From an uncultured Erythrobacter sp. (lineage in GTDB: Bacteria > Pseudomonadota > Alphaproteobacteria > Sphingomonadales > Sphingomonadaceae): DNA of 36,254 bases. A program made the translations under genes and the position numbers. This document shows positions 26,970 through 35,016 of the stretch, in pieces (the first letter of the stretch is position 1; every line of letters starts with the position of its first letter). The notes beneath the pieces were generated by a model. The model was not told where the DNA came from and did no database searches. It was given only the letters and a program-made list of their open reading frames with translations. Location: assembly GCA_947258465.1 (NCBI GenBank), contig CAMYIQ010000320.1, positions 1-36,254 on the forward strand, read 5' to 3'.

Positions 26970-27686
26970 ATGCAAAACCAGATTTTCACCTACGTATTGC
27001 TTGCCGGGTTGGCAATCGCACTCCTCTGTGTAATCGTCACCGACCTCAAGAGCCGCACGATCAGCAACAGGCTCACGATGACGGTGGCACTGGGCGCCCC
27101 GCTCTACTGGCTGTCGATCGGGCTGCCGCTATGGCCCGGGATTGCGTTTCAACTCGGTTTGGCAGTCGTCGTCTTCGCGGTCTGCTGCGTACTCTTCGCC
27201 ATTCGTCAAATGGGGGGTGGGGATGTGAAACTGCTCACGGCCCTTTCTTTGTGGATACCGCCTTCGCAATTCACCCTTTTGCTGGTGGCCATGGCGATGC
27301 TGGGATGGGTGCTGACCATGGCCGTCGGCGCATGGCGGGTGGCCCATTCCAATGCCTTCAAGACCAGGCCTGCGCGCGATTCCACGCTGCTGGTTCTCGG
27401 CACCTTGATTGCCGCGCTCTTCGCCAGCGCCGTGCTTGGCGGGCCGACGCTGCCCGTGCCGCAAGGCCTGATCGACACGACGTCTTCCAGCCCCCTCGCC
27501 GCGATCGCCGTGATACTCGCTCCATTCGTCATCTTGCTGGTGGTCACCCTTGGGTCGATCCGCATCATTCGGCGGCACGACCGCGATCTCTGGGTTCCCT
27601 ACGGCCCGGCGATTTCGCTCGCCGGTATCTGGATCGTCGCCAGCGGGCAGTTGCTGGCCGCCCACCCTGCCGTGACCGGCAGCTGA
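26970..27686 (+). CDS. cpaA: Prepilin peptidase (A24 family, CpaA-like)
   Basis: Multi-TM protein; VIVTDLKSRTISNRLT (first catalytic Asp) and RQMGGGDVKLLTALSLWI (GGGD second catalytic Asp). Confidence 0.9.
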   Translation: MQNQIFTYVLLAGLAIALLCVIVTDLKSRTISNRLTMTVALGAPLYWLSIGLPLWPGIAFQLGLAVVVFAVCCVLFAIRQMGGGDVKLLTALSLWIPPSQFTLLLVAMAMLGWVLTMAVGAWRVAHSNAFKTRPARDSTLLVLGTLIAALFASAVLGGPTLPVPQGLIDTTSSSPLAAIAVILAPFVILLVVTLGSIRIIRRHDRDLWVPYGPAISLAGIWIVASGQLLAAHPAVTGS

Positions 27687-27778: not shown

Positions 27779-28873
27779 ATGGATAGGAAGAAGCTGGTTC
27801 TGCTGGTCGCCGCACTGATCGTTGCAGTGGGTACGGCGCTGATCGCGCGGAGCATGTTTGCCGGTGCGAGCGCGCCTCAGGCCGAGGCCGCTCCGGTCGA
27901 AGCGCGCGGCCCCAAGGTCCTCGTCGCACAGCGGGCGCTGCCTGTGGGCACGATCATTACGGCCGACGCGATCGGGTACCAGCTCTGGCCCGAAGAACTG
28001 GTTCAGGACGCTTATTTCCTCGACGGCGAAGCCGATATGAACAAGCTTCTCGGTACGGTCGTCCGTCATCCGATAACGGCCGGTGAACCGGTCACGCAGG
28101 GTTCGCTCGTCGCGCCGGGCGATCGCGGTTTTCTCGCCGCCGCTCTCGCCCCGGGCATGCGGGCCATTACCGTTCCCGTTACCGCCCAGTCGGGCGTGGC
28201 CGGGTTCGTCTTTCCCGGCGACCGCGTCGACATGGTGTTAACCCAGAAAGTCGAAGGCAATGACGGGACGAACCTGAACGCGTCGGAAACCATTTTGCGT
28301 AACCTTCGCGTTCTCGCGACGGACCAGTCGACCGTTTCGGAACAGGCCGAAGACGGTTCGACGGTAGTGAAGCAATTCCGGACCGTCACACTCGAGGTCA
28401 CGCCGGTCATCGCCGAGAAGATCGCGGTGGCACAGACGATCGGTACGCTCAGCCTGTCGCTGCGTTCGCTGGCCGATAACCAGACCGAGCTCGAGCGGGC
28501 CATTGCGGCGGGCGACATCAACATTCCCGACGATGCGACGCCCGAAGAGGAAGAACGCATTCTGCGTCAGGCAATGGCGCGTCCCGACGATGGGAAAAGC
28601 ACCTATGTAACCGGCGGAGACGTTTCGCGTTTTCAACGTCGTTCGGCCCCTCCGCAGGGCGCCGTCACGGGCCCGCCGCCGACCGGATCGGCAGCCATGC
28701 CCGTTCGCCAAGGACCAAGTGTGCGTGTCACTCGCGGCAAGGAAACGGAAAACGTCCCGGTCGGCGCCGCCAAGATCAGCGCCGCGACCGGCGTCATCAA
28801 GAGCCGGCAGGCCGATGGAGCCTGGCTGCCAGCCGCGACCGGGCCGGTCGCGCAGACGGTTGCCGTCGCATGA
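27779..28873 (+). CDS. cpaB: Flp pilus assembly protein CpaB (RcpC; SAF domain)
   Basis: Membrane anchor, then ARGPKVLVAQRALPVGTIITADAIGYQLWPEELVQDAYF...GTVVRHPITAGEPVTQGSLV...GFVFPGDRVDMVLTQ: SAF/RcpC. Confidence 0.93.
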   Translation: MDRKKLVLLVAALIVAVGTALIARSMFAGASAPQAEAAPVEARGPKVLVAQRALPVGTIITADAIGYQLWPEELVQDAYFLDGEADMNKLLGTVVRHPITAGEPVTQGSLVAPGDRGFLAAALAPGMRAITVPVTAQSGVAGFVFPGDRVDMVLTQKVEGNDGTNLNASETILRNLRVLATDQSTVSEQAEDGSTVVKQFRTVTLEVTPVIAEKIAVAQTIGTLSLSLRSLADNQTELERAIAAGDINIPDDATPEEEERILRQAMARPDDGKSTYVTGGDVSRFQRRSAPPQGAVTGPPPTGSAAMPVRQGPSVRVTRGKETENVPVGAAKISAATGVIKSRQADGAWLPAATGPVAQTVAVA

Positions 28874-28914
28874 GCCGGAAAGAAAAAACGGGTAGCCAAT
28901 CAGGGGGCACATCC

Positions 28915-30501
28915 ATGAAACGTCGACTTACCACGAAATTGCTGGTCGCCAGTCTGGCCATCGCGCCACTGGCCAGCGCGCCGACGAACGTCGCGACGGC
29001 CCAGTCGATCGTGAGCCCAAGCTCGGAGATCGTGCTTTCGATCGGCCGCGGCGAATTGGTCAACGTACCCGGCGCCATGGCCGATGTCTTCATCGCCAAC
29101 GACCAGATCGCCGACGTTCAGGTGAAATCCAAACGTCAGCTCTACGTCTTCGGCAAAGCGGGGGGCGAAACCACGATCTACGCCAGCAACCGGGCCGGAG
29201 ACATCATCTGGTCGGCCAATATCCGCGTCGGTTCGAACATCGGCAGCATCGATCAGCTTCTCGCGCTGGCCATGCCTCAGGCGAAGATTTCGGTCGCCAC
29301 CATGGGATCCAACGTCGTTCTCCTCACCGGAACCGTTGCCGGCCCCGAGGATGCGGAAGAAGCGCAGCGCCTGGTGGAGGCCTTTGTCGGGGACGAAGCG
29401 AATGTCATCAGCCGTCTGCGCATGGCCACCCCGCTGCAAGTGAACCTGCAGGTTCGCATCGCCGAGGTAAGCCGCAGCTTCGTGCGGGCACTCGGCGTCA
29501 ACCTGACCAGCATCGACAGCAGCAGCGGGTTCAAGTTCGGCATAGGCCAGGGAAGGCAGGGCGCAATTCCGGAGTTCAACCCCGAAAAGCCGCTGGGCAC
29601 CGGTACGAAAACCATTGAAAGGGTATTCAATCCATTAACCGGCGAGTTCGAGGAACTGCCCGGTTCCACCGTTTCCCCGATTTCGCCGGGCACTACTTTG
29701 GGGGCATTCGGCAAGTTCCTCGGTCTGGACATCGGCGCCGCGCTGGATATGGCAGAGACAGAAGGGCTCGTGACCACGCTCTCGCAGCCCAATCTTACCG
29801 CGCTTTCGGGGGAAACGGCCGAGTTTCTGGCCGGCGGCGAATTCCCGATCCCGCTGAGCCAGGGGCTTGGCACAACCTCGATCGAATATAAGAAATATGG
29901 CGTCAGTCTCGCCTATTCTCCGACCGTGCTTTCGAACGGCCGTATCTCGATGCGCGTACGTCCGGAAGTGTCGGAATTGTCCAGCCAGGGCGCGATCACG
30001 CTGGAAGGTTTCCAGGTGCCCGCACTGGTGACCCGCCGCGCCGAAACCACTGTCGAGCTCGGCTCGGGCCAGAGCTTCATGATCGCCGGCCTGTTGTCGA
30101 ACAACGCAACCAATACGATCGACAAGGCTCCGGGCCTCGGCGACGTGCCGATCCTCGGCAATCTGTTCCGGTCGACCACTTACCGCAAGGGCGAAACCGA
30201 ACTGGTAATCGTCGTGACCCCCTATCTGGTGAAACCGATCGACGGGAACGACATCAAGCTGCCCACGGACGGTTTCCGCAAGCCGACCGAATTCCAGCGG
30301 CTGCTCGGTTTCCAGCAAAGCGACGGTGTGACCGGCGGCGACCGTCCGAAACCACGCGCCGTCCAGTCGCAACCTGCCGCACCTGCCATTTCGCAAGGCG
30401 CGCCGGTCGACGGTGGCGACCAGCAAGCATCAGACGGGAAAACCGAAGCGCGTCGCAATGAAAAGACCGCATCGGCGAAGCCCGGTTTCAGTTTCGAATA
30501 A
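28915..30501 (+). CDS. cpaC: Type II/III secretion system secretin, CpaC/RcpA
   Basis: BON/N-terminal pilus domain plus secretin: VNLQVRIAEVSRSFVRALGVNL...VTTLSQPNLTALSGETAEFLAGGEFPIPL...VELGSGQSFMIAGLLSN...VPILGNLFRSTTYRKGETELVIVVTPYLV. Signal peptide supports ATG 28915; an ATG at 28870 overlaps the cpaB stop. Confidence 0.94.
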   Translation: MKRRLTTKLLVASLAIAPLASAPTNVATAQSIVSPSSEIVLSIGRGELVNVPGAMADVFIANDQIADVQVKSKRQLYVFGKAGGETTIYASNRAGDIIWSANIRVGSNIGSIDQLLALAMPQAKISVATMGSNVVLLTGTVAGPEDAEEAQRLVEAFVGDEANVISRLRMATPLQVNLQVRIAEVSRSFVRALGVNLTSIDSSSGFKFGIGQGRQGAIPEFNPEKPLGTGTKTIERVFNPLTGEFEELPGSTVSPISPGTTLGAFGKFLGLDIGAALDMAETEGLVTTLSQPNLTALSGETAEFLAGGEFPIPLSQGLGTTSIEYKKYGVSLAYSPTVLSNGRISMRVRPEVSELSSQGAITLEGFQVPALVTRRAETTVELGSGQSFMIAGLLSNNATNTIDKAPGLGDVPILGNLFRSTTYRKGETELVIVVTPYLVKPIDGNDIKLPTDGFRKPTEFQRLLGFQQSDGVTGGDRPKPRAVQSQPAAPAISQGAPVDGGDQQASDGKTEARRNEKTASAKPGFSFE

Positions 30502-30514
30502 GGGGACGAGTAAC

Positions 30515-31162
30515 ATGGCTATAGCATTCAATCGCAAGCTCGCCGGTACGCTGGCCGCCTCGCTCGGCCTCGCGCTCGGTGCCTGCGGCGGCTTCCCGAC
30601 CGAAAACCGTTCGCTTTACAGCGCTCGTCAGCCCGTCGTCGAACGGACCAATTTCACGCTCGACATACGCACTGCGGGCGATGGCCTGCCGGTCGGCGAA
30701 CAGCGCCGTGTCGCGGGTTGGTTCGATGCCATGGAACTTGGCTATGGCGATCGCATCTCGCTCGACGATCCGACCGCCAATCCAGCCGTGAGGGAGGACC
30801 TCGTCGCCCTCGCCGGGCGGCATGGCCTGCTGGTCAGCGAGAGTTCCCCGGTCACTCCCGACTATATCGATCCGGGTGAGGCGCGCATCGTCATAACCCG
30901 TTCGAAGGCGAGCGTTCCCGGTTGCCCCGACTGGTCGGCCAACAACGAAGCCAACGAATATAACGCAACCTACCCTGGTTATGGCTGCGCGGTGAACGGG
31001 AATCTCGCTGCGATGATCGCAAACCCGGAAGATCTGATTGCGGGGCAGAAGGGCTCGGGCGAGACCTTGGTCACCACTTCGACCAAGGCGATCGAGGCCT
31101 ATCGCGACAAGACTCCAACCGGTGCGGGCGGTCTATCCCAAGTCAGCAGCAAAGGAGACTAA
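30515..31162 (+). CDS. cpaD: CpaD family pilus assembly lipoprotein
   Basis: MAIAFNRKLAGTLAASLGLALGACGGFPTENRSLYSARQPVVERTNFTLDI...CPDWSANNEANEYNATYPGYGCAVNGNLAAMIANPEDLI...: CpaD hallmark. Confidence 0.94.
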   Translation: MAIAFNRKLAGTLAASLGLALGACGGFPTENRSLYSARQPVVERTNFTLDIRTAGDGLPVGEQRRVAGWFDAMELGYGDRISLDDPTANPAVREDLVALAGRHGLLVSESSPVTPDYIDPGEARIVITRSKASVPGCPDWSANNEANEYNATYPGYGCAVNGNLAAMIANPEDLIAGQKGSGETLVTTSTKAIEAYRDKTPTGAGGLSQVSSKGD

Positions 31163-31168
31163 GCAGCC

Positions 31169-32458
31169 ATGAGCGCTTCACTCAAACCCGGCATGGCAGG
31201 CAACCGCGACGCCTTTGCGGCCTATATCTGCGACGAGAACGCTCTCGATGTACTGCGTCCTGTGGTGATCGAACTCGGCTGGCAGCCCGAGAAATGCAAT
31301 AAGGGCGGATTGCGCAACGCGATCCAGTCGCTATCGGTTTCGGCCAGCCCCAACATCTTGATGGTGGACCTTTCGGAAAGCGGCGACCCGCTGAACGACA
31401 TCAACGCGCTGGCCGAAGTCTGCGAACCGGGCACGGTGGTAATCGCCATCGGCCAGGTCAACGATGTGCGCCTGTATCGCGACCTGCTCGCAAGCGGCAT
31501 CCACGATTACCTGCTCAAGCCGTTATCGGCCAATATGCTGCGCGATTCGCTCAATCAGGCGCAGGCTGTTTTTCTCGCTCCGCGAGCCGGCGAAGACGAC
31601 GGCGTCAAACGTCACATGTCGACTGCCGTGATCGGCACGCGGGGCGGCGTCGGCGCATCCACGCTTGCCACGTCACTCGCCTGGCTCTTCGCCAGCGAGA
31701 AACACATGCCGACCGCCCTGCTCGATCTCGACGTGCATTTCGGCACCGGCGCTCTGGCGCTCGATCTCGAACCCGGCCGCGGGCTGACCGACGCGATCGA
31801 CAATCCGAGCCGGATCGACGGGCTGTTTATCGAACGCGCGATGATCCGCGCGAGCGACAATCTCGCGATCCTTTCGGCGGAAGCACCGATCAATCATCCG
31901 CTGATGACCGACGGGTCTGCCTTCGTGCAGTTGCAGGAAGAGTTCAGGCATTCGTTCGAAATGACCGTGCTCGACATGCCGCGCAATATGATGATCAATT
32001 TTCCTCACCTGCTCAACGATATAAACGTCGTTGTGCTGGCTACCGAAATGTCGCTGGCTTCGGCCCGCGACACGATCCGCATCCTGTCGTGGCTCAAGAC
32101 GAACGCGCCCCATTCGCATGTCGTGATCGTGGCCAACAAGGTTCAGCCGGGGGCCGCCGAAATCAGCAAGGCCGATTTCGAGGCCTCGATCGAGCGCAAG
32201 ATCGATGTGACGATCCCCTACGATCAGAAGGCTGCGGCAAATGCCGCCAAGCTCGGCAAGACTTTCGTCGACGCCAATAGCGGAGCGAAAGCGACGGGGG
32301 CGATCAAGCAGCTCTGTGCCCGCGTCATCGGCATCGGCACCGAAGAGGCCGTGGCAGCCGAGGAAGCGGGAGCCAAGAAATCGCTGCTCGGCGGTTTCGA
32401 TTTCAAGAATCTGCTCGCGAAGAAGAAGGGCGCACCGGCTGCACAGCCGGTGGAATGA
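31169..32458 (+). CDS. cpaE: CpaE/TadZ family pilus assembly ParA/MinD-like protein
   Basis: N-terminal receiver-like domain; VIGTRGGVGASTLATSLAWLF atypical P-loop; LLDLDVHFGTGALALDLEPGRGLTDAIDNPSRIDGLFIERAM. Confidence 0.93.
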   Translation: MSASLKPGMAGNRDAFAAYICDENALDVLRPVVIELGWQPEKCNKGGLRNAIQSLSVSASPNILMVDLSESGDPLNDINALAEVCEPGTVVIAIGQVNDVRLYRDLLASGIHDYLLKPLSANMLRDSLNQAQAVFLAPRAGEDDGVKRHMSTAVIGTRGGVGASTLATSLAWLFASEKHMPTALLDLDVHFGTGALALDLEPGRGLTDAIDNPSRIDGLFIERAMIRASDNLAILSAEAPINHPLMTDGSAFVQLQEEFRHSFEMTVLDMPRNMMINFPHLLNDINVVVLATEMSLASARDTIRILSWLKTNAPHSHVVIVANKVQPGAAEISKADFEASIERKIDVTIPYDQKAAANAAKLGKTFVDANSGAKATGAIKQLCARVIGIGTEEAVAAEEAGAKKSLLGGFDFKNLLAKKKGAPAAQPVE

Positions 32459-32508
32459 CGGCACCCGAGACACGCTTCGGGTAGCTTGCAAATGGACGGA
32501 GACTACGC

Positions 32509-33480
32509 ATGAACATCATCCAGCCGGTGCTGGTGGCCGTCGGGGTCCTCGCCTTGCTGGCGATCGGATACGCTATGCTCTCCGGCCCGAATGCGGCCAA
32601 AGCGAGCCAGCGGCGGCTGGAGCAGCTTCGCTATCGCCATTCGGAAAGCACCGACGCCAAGGTCGAATCCCAGCTCAAGAAAGCCATCGCGGCGCGCAAG
32701 CCGAAGATGCAGCGAGTCGCCGGATCGACTTCGCGGATCGAAGCGCTGGCCAATCGGCTCGATCGAACCGGAAAAGGTTGGACGCTCAGTCAATATGCCT
32801 ACGCGTCGCTCGGACTGGGCATCGTCGTGACGCTTCTCATGTTCCTGCGCAGCGGATCGCCGGGCCTGTCGCTGGCCATTGGTGTGCTGGTGGGGGCGGG
32901 ATTGCCGCATTTTATCGTCGGGCGCACGATCAAAAAGCGCACCAGCGATTTCAACGCGAAGTTTCCCGACGCCATCGAACTGCTCGTGCGCGGCCTGCGC
33001 TCGGGCCTTCCGGTGACCGAGACGCTCGCGGTCGTCGCGCAGGAGGTCCCCGGCCCTGTCGGCGAGGAGTTCAGGGGCGTCGTCGAGCGTATCAAGATCG
33101 GGCGCACGATGGAGGATGCCCTTCAGGAAACGGCGGACAGGCTCGGTATCCCGGAATTCAACTTTTTCTGCATCACTCTCGCCATCCAGCGCGAAACCGG
33201 CGGTAACCTCGCCGAAACCCTGTCGAACCTTTCCGACGTGCTTCGCAAGCGGGCGCAGATGAAACTCAAGATCAGGGCGATGAGCTCGGAATCGAAGGCC
33301 TCGGCCTATATCGTCGGCGCCCTGCCCTTCATCGTGTTCGGACTGATCTGGTGGATCAACCCGGCATATATCGGCGGCTTCTTCGAGGATGACCGTCTGA
33401 TCGTAACCGGCCTGGGCGGCCTCGTGTGGATGGGCATCGGCGTCTTCATCATGGCCAAGATGGTCAGCTTCGAGATCTGA
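32509..33480 (+). CDS. tadB: Type II secretion F family protein TadB
   Basis: IELLVRGLRSGLPVTETLAVVAQEVPGPVGEEFRGVVERIKIGRTMEDALQETADRLGIPEFNFFCITLAIQRETGGNLAETLSNLSDVLRKR: GspF/TadB domain. Confidence 0.94.
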   Translation: MNIIQPVLVAVGVLALLAIGYAMLSGPNAAKASQRRLEQLRYRHSESTDAKVESQLKKAIAARKPKMQRVAGSTSRIEALANRLDRTGKGWTLSQYAYASLGLGIVVTLLMFLRSGSPGLSLAIGVLVGAGLPHFIVGRTIKKRTSDFNAKFPDAIELLVRGLRSGLPVTETLAVVAQEVPGPVGEEFRGVVERIKIGRTMEDALQETADRLGIPEFNFFCITLAIQRETGGNLAETLSNLSDVLRKRAQMKLKIRAMSSESKASAYIVGALPFIVFGLIWWINPAYIGGFFEDDRLIVTGLGGLVWMGIGVFIMAKMVSFEI

Positions 33481-33500: not shown

Positions 33501-34502
33501 ATGGACGCTGCAACCGGCCCCACCCTTCTCGGCTTCGATGTCTATCTGGTCGGCTCGATCCTCATCGGGATCGCAGCCGCTGCCATGGTGTTCGCGATCT
33601 ACACTGCCGTGACCATCAAGGATCCGATGAGCAAGCGCGTCAAAGCGCTCGAGGGTCGCCGGGAAGAGCTCAAGATGGGCCTCGTTACCTCCTCCGCCAA
33701 GAAGCGGCAGAGCCTGGTTCGCAAGACCGATACGACCGAGAAGATCAAAGACACGCTCGGCAGGATGAAGGTGCTGCAGGAGAGCCAAGTCGAAGGCGTG
33801 CAGCAAAAACTGGCCCATGCCGGCATCCGTAACAAGGAACTGGCGATCGTCATCATCGGCCTGCGCGCGGTCCTGCCGGTGTTGCTGGGCGGCCTCGTCT
33901 TCGTATCGGTCTTCTTGCTCGACACCTTTCCCGAATGGGGCGCGATAAAGCGCAACGGCGCGCTGATTCTGGCCGTGTTTCTCGGCTATAAGGGTCCTGA
34001 AATCTACCTTAGCAATCTGGCATCGAAACGTTCGGACGCGATCCGGAAGGGCCTTCCGGATGCGCTCGACCTGCTGGTCATCTGCGCGGAAGCGGGCCTG
34101 ACCGTCGATGCTGCATTCAACCGGGTGGCGAAGGAACTGGGCCGCGCCTATCCGGAACTGGGTGACGAGTTCGCGCTCACCGCTATCGAGCTGTCCTTCC
34201 TCAACGAACGGAAGAAGGCCTTCGACAACCTCGCCTACCGCGTGGATCTGGAGGCGGTGAAAGGCGTCGTCACCACCATGGTCCAGACCGAACGCTATGG
34301 TACCCCGCTAGCTTCCGCCTTACGCGTCCTGTCGGCCGAATTCCGTAACGAGCGGATGATGCGCGCCGAGGAAAAGGCCGCGCGCCTGCCGGCCATCATG
34401 ACCGTGCCGCTGATCATGTTCATCTTGCCGGTCCTGTTCATCGTCATTCTCGGACCGGCGGCCTGTTCGATCGCCGACGCCTTCAGCGGCGGTATCGGGT
34501 AA
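33501..34502 (+). CDS. tadC: Type II secretion F family protein TadC
   Basis: LPDALDLLVICAEAGLTVDAAFNRVAKELGRAYPELGDEFALTAIELSFLNERKKAFDNLAYRVDLEAVKGVVTTMVQTERYGTPLASALRVLSAEFRNERMMRAEEKAARLPAIMTVPLI: TadC. Confidence 0.94.
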   Translation: MDAATGPTLLGFDVYLVGSILIGIAAAAMVFAIYTAVTIKDPMSKRVKALEGRREELKMGLVTSSAKKRQSLVRKTDTTEKIKDTLGRMKVLQESQVEGVQQKLAHAGIRNKELAIVIIGLRAVLPVLLGGLVFVSVFLLDTFPEWGAIKRNGALILAVFLGYKGPEIYLSNLASKRSDAIRKGLPDALDLLVICAEAGLTVDAAFNRVAKELGRAYPELGDEFALTAIELSFLNERKKAFDNLAYRVDLEAVKGVVTTMVQTERYGTPLASALRVLSAEFRNERMMRAEEKAARLPAIMTVPLIMFILPVLFIVILGPAACSIADAFSGGIG

Positions 34503-34530: not shown

Positions 34531-34562
34531 AAGCCTGGCCGCTTTTCAGTCGGCCAGGCTTT
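34531..34562. terminator. Bidirectional terminator-like hairpin between convergent tadC and marR-type gene
   Basis: AAGCCTGGCCG-(~9 nt)-CGGCCAGGCTT inverted repeat with flanking A/T bases, in the convergent gap and overlapping the last codons of the minus-strand gene. Coordinates good to about 1-2 nt. Confidence 0.6.
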
Positions 34563-35016
34563 CCGCGTCGAAATCGCCCGCCTGATCGCGTACCCGCACC
34601 AGCATGTCGAGCAGGCTGGCGCGCTCTTCCTCGCTCAGCACCGAGAACAGCTCGCTCTCGATCTTCAGGGCCAGCGGCATGATCCCCGCATGGACCGCGC
34701 GCCCTTCGCTTGTCAGTTCCAGCAAATGCGAACGCCCATCGCTGGCATTGGGCGAACGCTGGACCAGGCCGCGGTCCTCCAGCCGCTTGCACGCGCGGTT
34801 GACCGGCACCTTGTCCATCAAAGTCTGTTGCGAAAGATCGCGCTGTGTCAGCGAACCGTGATCGCCGAGCACCGCCATGATACGCCATTCGGTGGTCTTG
34901 AGCGCGAAGCGCTTGCGGTACTGTTCGGCTATCCGGGTCGATACAGCATTCGATGCGATCGACAGTTGGTAAGGCAGGAACTCGGCAAGGCGTTGGGCGG
35001 GCTGGCGTTTGGACAT
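34546..35016 (-). CDS. MarR family transcriptional regulator
   Basis: RFALKTTEWRIMAVLGDHGSLTQRDLSQQTLMDKVPVNRACKRLEDRGLVQRSPNASDGRSHLLELTSEGRAVH: MarR winged helix with D-x-R wing. Confidence 0.93.
   Translation of the reverse strand: MSKRQPAQRLAEFLPYQLSIASNAVSTRIAEQYRKRFALKTTEWRIMAVLGDHGSLTQRDLSQQTLMDKVPVNRACKRLEDRGLVQRSPNASDGRSHLLELTSEGRAVHAGIMPLALKIESELFSVLSEEERASLLDMLVRVRDQAGDFDAESLAD

Follow-up and report, generated by a model that had tools for sequence, protein, structure and literature searches.

An unlinked second CpaF paralogue as the probable motor of a Tad/Flp pilus locus lacking cpaF in an uncultured Erythrobacter sp.

What powers a Tad/Flp (type IVc) pilus whose locus carries no gene for the motor ATPase CpaF? 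The question is raised by a 36,254-nucleotide contig of an uncultured Erythrobacter sp. (Sphingomonadaceae), analysed over its whole length and referred to below as the window. In its tad locus cpaE/tadZ, coding for a ParA-like localisation ATPase (31169..32458, +), is directly followed by tadB/cpaG, coding for an inner-membrane platform protein (32509..33480, +; Pfam T2SSF, 7.3e-27). The junction between them (32459..32508, +), the site that lacks the ancestral in-locus cpaF1, is exactly 50 nucleotides long and has neither a gene nor a coding remnant, while both flanking genes are intact, just as a preliminary description of this DNA had stated. Comparison of gene order and protein sequence across the family points strongly to a functional Tad locus in which the motor CpaF1 was displaced by a paralogue, CpaF2, acting in trans.

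The synteny comparison proposed in the preliminary description gave a sharp division. In 39 of 39 genomes from the same genus and the core of the family, single-contig genomes included, cpaE and tadB are 0-87 nucleotides apart or, in one case, overlap slightly. The gap is 1.3-1.9 kb and has cpaF inside in all 23 comparison loci, which come from other Sphingomonadales families and a few relatives of the same family. The absence of cpaF from the window junction is real and family-wide, and nearly all of the family shares the split, which persists across dozens of genera.

The genome to which the window belongs is a 346-contig draft (2.85 Mb, 87.7% completeness). A whole-genome profile search with the secretion-ATPase family PF00437 gave no match on the window contig and matched three other contigs: C113 (CpaF-type), C226 and C148 (two other ATPases). 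The intact C113 gene is the sole CpaF-type ATPase gene of this genome. Its frame covers about 574-2103, with the start inferred at a conserved MSAFGRK, and it is flanked by the start of glmS on the opposite strand and by a convergent gene for a small membrane protein (named from sequence). The C226 ATPase was ruled out as the Tad motor: it is VirB11-like, adjoins a VirB10-like gene (named from sequence) and is 34% identical to CpaF. This VirB11-like and VirB10-like pair (L002:1444-3614) is probably a fragment of a type IV secretion or conjugation system.

The whole motor region of the C113 protein was matched to the cryo-electron microscopy structures of Caulobacter crescentus CpaF (8rkd, 8rjf, 9e24; E about 1e-142). 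The Walker A motif GGTGSGKTT is invariant, and according to the structure alignment the C113 protein keeps the hinge glycines, the Loop 8 Asp, the central-loop Glu and Gly residues and the Walker B Glu, all known to be essential by mutagenesis (PMC11300603). Catalytic and platform-contact residues are conserved between the two motors, and one position among those tested in the same study, S333, is Gln in the C113 protein. A C113-type CpaF (94-100% identical, one partial) is present in 24 of 24 sampled genomes of the same genus, never next to tadB. Eight genomes of this genus (G006, G007, G011, G012, G015, G017, G020, and G023) also have a second CpaF (48-49% identical) beside a TadB-like gene; these represent an additional conventional Tad locus which was not found in the genome of the window.

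According to the preliminary description, a clear cpaF elsewhere in the genome would make the arrangement a routine rearrangement. This expectation failed, as the solo gene represents another paralogue. Six genomes of the family have two CpaFs. One of them, CpaF1, is encoded directly upstream of tadB and is 57-60% identical to the CpaF of the window's genome; the other, CpaF2, is encoded elsewhere and is 74-83% identical to it. Both are also found in G026, G038 and G036 (where CpaF1 is cut by a contig end), as well as in Pacificimonas flava, Sphingosinicella microcystinivorans and other drafts, in which CpaF1 was judged by identity, not by position. In a maximum-likelihood tree CpaF1 is separated from CpaF2 and all the core solo genes with support of 100/100, and a quick tree with outgroups gives the same split (Shimodaira-Hasegawa-like approximate likelihood ratio test value 98). 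The solo CpaF of the window's genome groups, again at 100/100, with the CpaF2 copies of Pacificimonas, Sphingosinicella and some other families in which CpaF1 is present as well. Twenty-five near-fixed differences separate the two paralogues. Their N-terminal regions also differ: that of CpaF1 is longer and different, while in the CpaF2 of the family and in the core proteins it is short, starting near M(S/N)xFG(R/K). By sequence, the solo CpaF is the CpaF2 paralogue and not the original in-locus gene moved. Since the N-terminus of Caulobacter CpaF promotes retraction (PMC11300603) and the N-termini of the two paralogues differ, the motor swap could alter the control of retraction.

The distribution of both paralogues was read at a fixed search cut-off in 151 genomes of the family, together with that of a small partner gene described below. 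CpaF2 alone is present in 125 genomes, CpaF1, CpaF2 and the partner in 6, CpaF1 alone in 4, and none of the three in 16. TadB reaches the cut-off in 128 of the 131 genomes with CpaF2 and in 0 of the 16 genomes without any CpaF (Fisher p about 1e-18, without correction for relatedness), and no genome has TadB without a CpaF. The same pattern is seen within a single genus, where G064 has both CpaF2 and TadB, and G144 has neither.

In a tree of concatenated CpaE, TadB and TadC the 21 core loci without cpaF1 form one clade (100/100), sister to Sphingosinicella and Pacificimonas (97/96). One more genome without cpaF1 and without the partner, G133, falls inside Pacificimonas (100/100), and in the CpaF tree its CpaF2 is joined to the Pacificimonas flava CpaF2 (100/93). 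The position of its CpaE-TadB-TadC within Pacificimonas rules out that G133 acquired a tad locus of the core type. Since the core clade and G133 sit apart in this tree, cpaF1 was lost in place at least twice, the partner being absent each time.

The partner is a DUF6812-like gene of about 85 residues located directly 3' of cpaF2 in the genomes with both motors (loci L068-L081, e.g., L068:6001-6315). Its best match to DUF6812 (PF20660) is 1.2e-8, and three of the four proteins tested exceed the cut-off. A profile search found it only in the six two-CpaF genomes among the 151 of the family; it is absent from the genome of the window and from all core members. Its AlphaFold2 model is a confidently predicted small beta barrel over residues 40-100 (block means of 88-94 in the predicted local distance difference test), which weakly resembles Hfq and YgdR-like folds (best E 0.02; nothing below E = 0.001 in the fold search). 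A literature search found no paper on DUF6812. A distant DUF6812-like gene without any CpaF is present in Tepidicella. In Hankyongella ginsenosidimutans (L079, G249:C1:2800684-2801933) a cpaF2 remnant lies between the small genes, and the other CpaF is encoded in two overlapping frames, through either genuine decay or a frameshift introduced by sequencing. In some other families cpaF2 is preceded by a gene for another conserved small protein (about 70 residues), without a significant Pfam match (L057:9851-10057, L058:10030-10254, L059:5211-5621, L079:5201-5386).

These data are best explained by the following scenario. The ancestor would have had two motors: CpaF1, with its gene between cpaE and tadB, and CpaF2, with its gene at another site and immediately followed by the DUF6812-like gene. 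On the branch that gave rise to most of the family, a clean deletion would have removed cpaF1 from the tad locus and the partner would have been lost as well, leaving CpaF2 (C113:574-2103, beside glmS, in the window's genome) as the sole Tad motor. Most likely, it is CpaF2 alone that drives the pilus of the window. Its hexamer could be expected to dock on TadB/TadC, driving both insertion and withdrawal of pilin subunits, and the process would use the Flp pilins encoded on C341 and the TadE/TadG-type proteins encoded on C86. The partner presumably became dispensable because of the motor swap.

Several points weigh against this scenario. The role of CpaF2 in the pilus of the window is read from sequence. 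In three genomes (G061, G107, and G093) CpaF2 is present but no TadB match reaches the cut-off; they are all fragmented drafts, and the TadB of G093 is cut by a contig end. Firmly resolved losses of cpaF1 number two, so the coupling with partner loss rests on two events, which cannot prove it. Hankyongella keeps the partner with a mere remnant of CpaF2 and a frame-broken CpaF1. Finally, CpaF2 may have come by horizontal transfer and not by duplication, its source not being resolved by the tree. Such a horizontal origin, with CpaF2 and the small partner genes entering Sphingomonadales from outside and later displacing CpaF1, would lead to the same end state. It would agree with the long stem branch of CpaF2 and with its patchy occurrence outside the family (some genomes of the families coded f2, f3, and f7), but other orders of the class yielded no CpaF above 59% identity, and the closest relatives all lie within the order. 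We consider this origin unlikely.

The other explanations fare worse. Simple relocation of the in-locus cpaF, intact and as the same paralogue, to the glmS region would account for a locus without cpaF and a single copy elsewhere. It is contradicted by the grouping of the solo gene with the CpaF2 copies found alongside CpaF1, by the longer and different N-terminal region of CpaF1 and by the 25 near-fixed differences, and is very improbable: the solo gene belongs to another paralogue than the in-locus CpaF of other families. Slightly less probable still is a non-functional locus with the solo CpaF serving another machine. The Flp and TadE genes are indeed also missing from the locus, as the preliminary description noted, but they are present elsewhere in the genome, and in each of the 12 relatives checked Flp is unlinked from the tad locus. 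Moreover, all genes of the locus are open, which rules out its decay, CpaF2 and TadB are present or missing jointly, and the arrangement persists across dozens of genera. An assembly artefact at 32440-32515 could be suspected in a draft of 346 contigs and 87.7% completeness; the same junction in 38 other genomes, including single-contig ones, rules it out, as it does a chance origin of the junction, and the probability of an artefact is negligible. Of the three options left by the preliminary description, an ATPase encoded elsewhere (C113) and a lineage-specific split (almost the whole family) both apply, while a non-functional derivative is not supported, given the open genes and the co-occurrence of CpaF2 with TadB.

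Displacement of CpaF1 by CpaF2, the explanation we prefer, can be set against two known systems. Caulobacter crescentus has a Tad/Flp (type IVc) system with the same cpaA-B-C-D-E and tadB-tadC genes and with CpaF as the motor. In contrast to it, the cpaF of the window's genome is unlinked rather than located between cpaE and tadB, the pilin and TadE genes lie elsewhere, and the motor derives from the second paralogue, whose N-terminal region does not resemble the one found in the in-locus CpaF1 of the same order. In type IVa pili, PilB and PilT(PilU) are paralogous duplicated motors. The genomes with both CpaF1 and CpaF2 resemble such a two-motor state, whereas the lineage of the window keeps one motor, as Caulobacter does. 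A single CpaF performs both extension and retraction in Caulobacter, and the generality of one bifunctional CpaF across Tad systems was stated as unknown (PMC11300603). The genomes with CpaF1 and CpaF2 and those with CpaF2 only offer a ready comparison for addressing it. We also speculate, with considerable doubt, that the Tad pili of some Sphingomonadales (Pacificimonas, Sphingosinicella, and others) work with two motors, CpaF1 encoded in the locus and a CpaF2 checked or specialised by the DUF6812-like protein, as a convergent counterpart of PilB/PilT, and that the loss of CpaF1 and the partner freed CpaF2 to act as a single bidirectional motor in the lineage of the window. If so, both states would constitute a natural experiment on extension and retraction by a single CpaF. 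The genomes with CpaF1, CpaF2 and the partner also place the uncharacterised DUF6812 family in a genomic context.

Location of all Tad components in one locus is the usual state (PMC6668835), and scattered Tad systems were very rare in a survey. Tad pili and CpaF are well known; the new part appears to be a motor that is unlinked and replaced by a paralogue in most of a family. No paper describing a displaced or unlinked CpaF in Sphingomonadales was found, most subscription literature being outside the reach of the search. Locus-based annotation would call such Tad systems motor-less.

The pilin genes are dispersed as well. No Flp pilin or TadE gene was found in the window by profile search, in agreement with the preliminary description; the genome search that it had suggested for CpaF and Flp pilin located, besides CpaF on C113, two Flp pilins on C341, and two TadE-domain matches were obtained on C86. 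A TadG-like gene is also present on C86, and the TadE-domain and TadG-like genes have ppk- and ppx-like neighbours (the names TadG, ppk and ppx being assigned from sequence). The Tad components of this genome are spread over four contigs and not gathered in one locus. Closed relatives likewise have cpaF and Flp genes far from tadB. Since Flp is unlinked in 12 of 12 relatives, two-CpaF genomes included, pilin dispersal probably predates the motor swap.

The remaining genes of the window locus are all open and conserved. cpaA/tadV, coding for prepilin peptidase (26970..27686, +; Peptidase_A24, 4.8e-14), is followed by cpaB/rcpC (27779..28873, +; RcpC, 3.1e-34, and SAF), by the secretin gene cpaC/rcpA (28870..30501, +, as the longest frame, an internal start near 28915 being likely; Secretin, 3.8e-43) and by cpaD (30500..31162, +, exact start uncertain, the longest frame beginning at 30413; Pilus_CpaD, 2.1e-41). 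The cpaE product has sub-threshold P-loop matches in Pfam (CbiA 3e-5, under the curated cut-off); it is co-linear and alignable with CpaE in the tad loci of relatives. tadB is followed by tadC/cpaH, coding for the other inner-membrane platform protein (33501..34502, +, start inferred, longest frame from 33426; T2SSF, 9.8e-19), and these adjacent genes, each with a single T2SSF domain, make up a Tad/Flp platform pair. No RNA hairpin exceeding shuffled sequences was detected in the cpaE-tadB junction of the window (z about 0) by a script that mis-oriented minus-strand loci. The corresponding gaps of several relatives are hairpin-like (L043, z -4.9), some of these loci being mis-oriented, and nothing is claimed from them. 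Pfam recognises cpaA, cpaB, cpaC, cpaD, tadB, tadC and marR, the matches of cpaA, cpaB and cpaC lying above the curated cut-offs. The locus is bounded by this convergent marR (34546..35016, -; MarR_2, 7.7e-15), which also adjoins tadC in several relatives.
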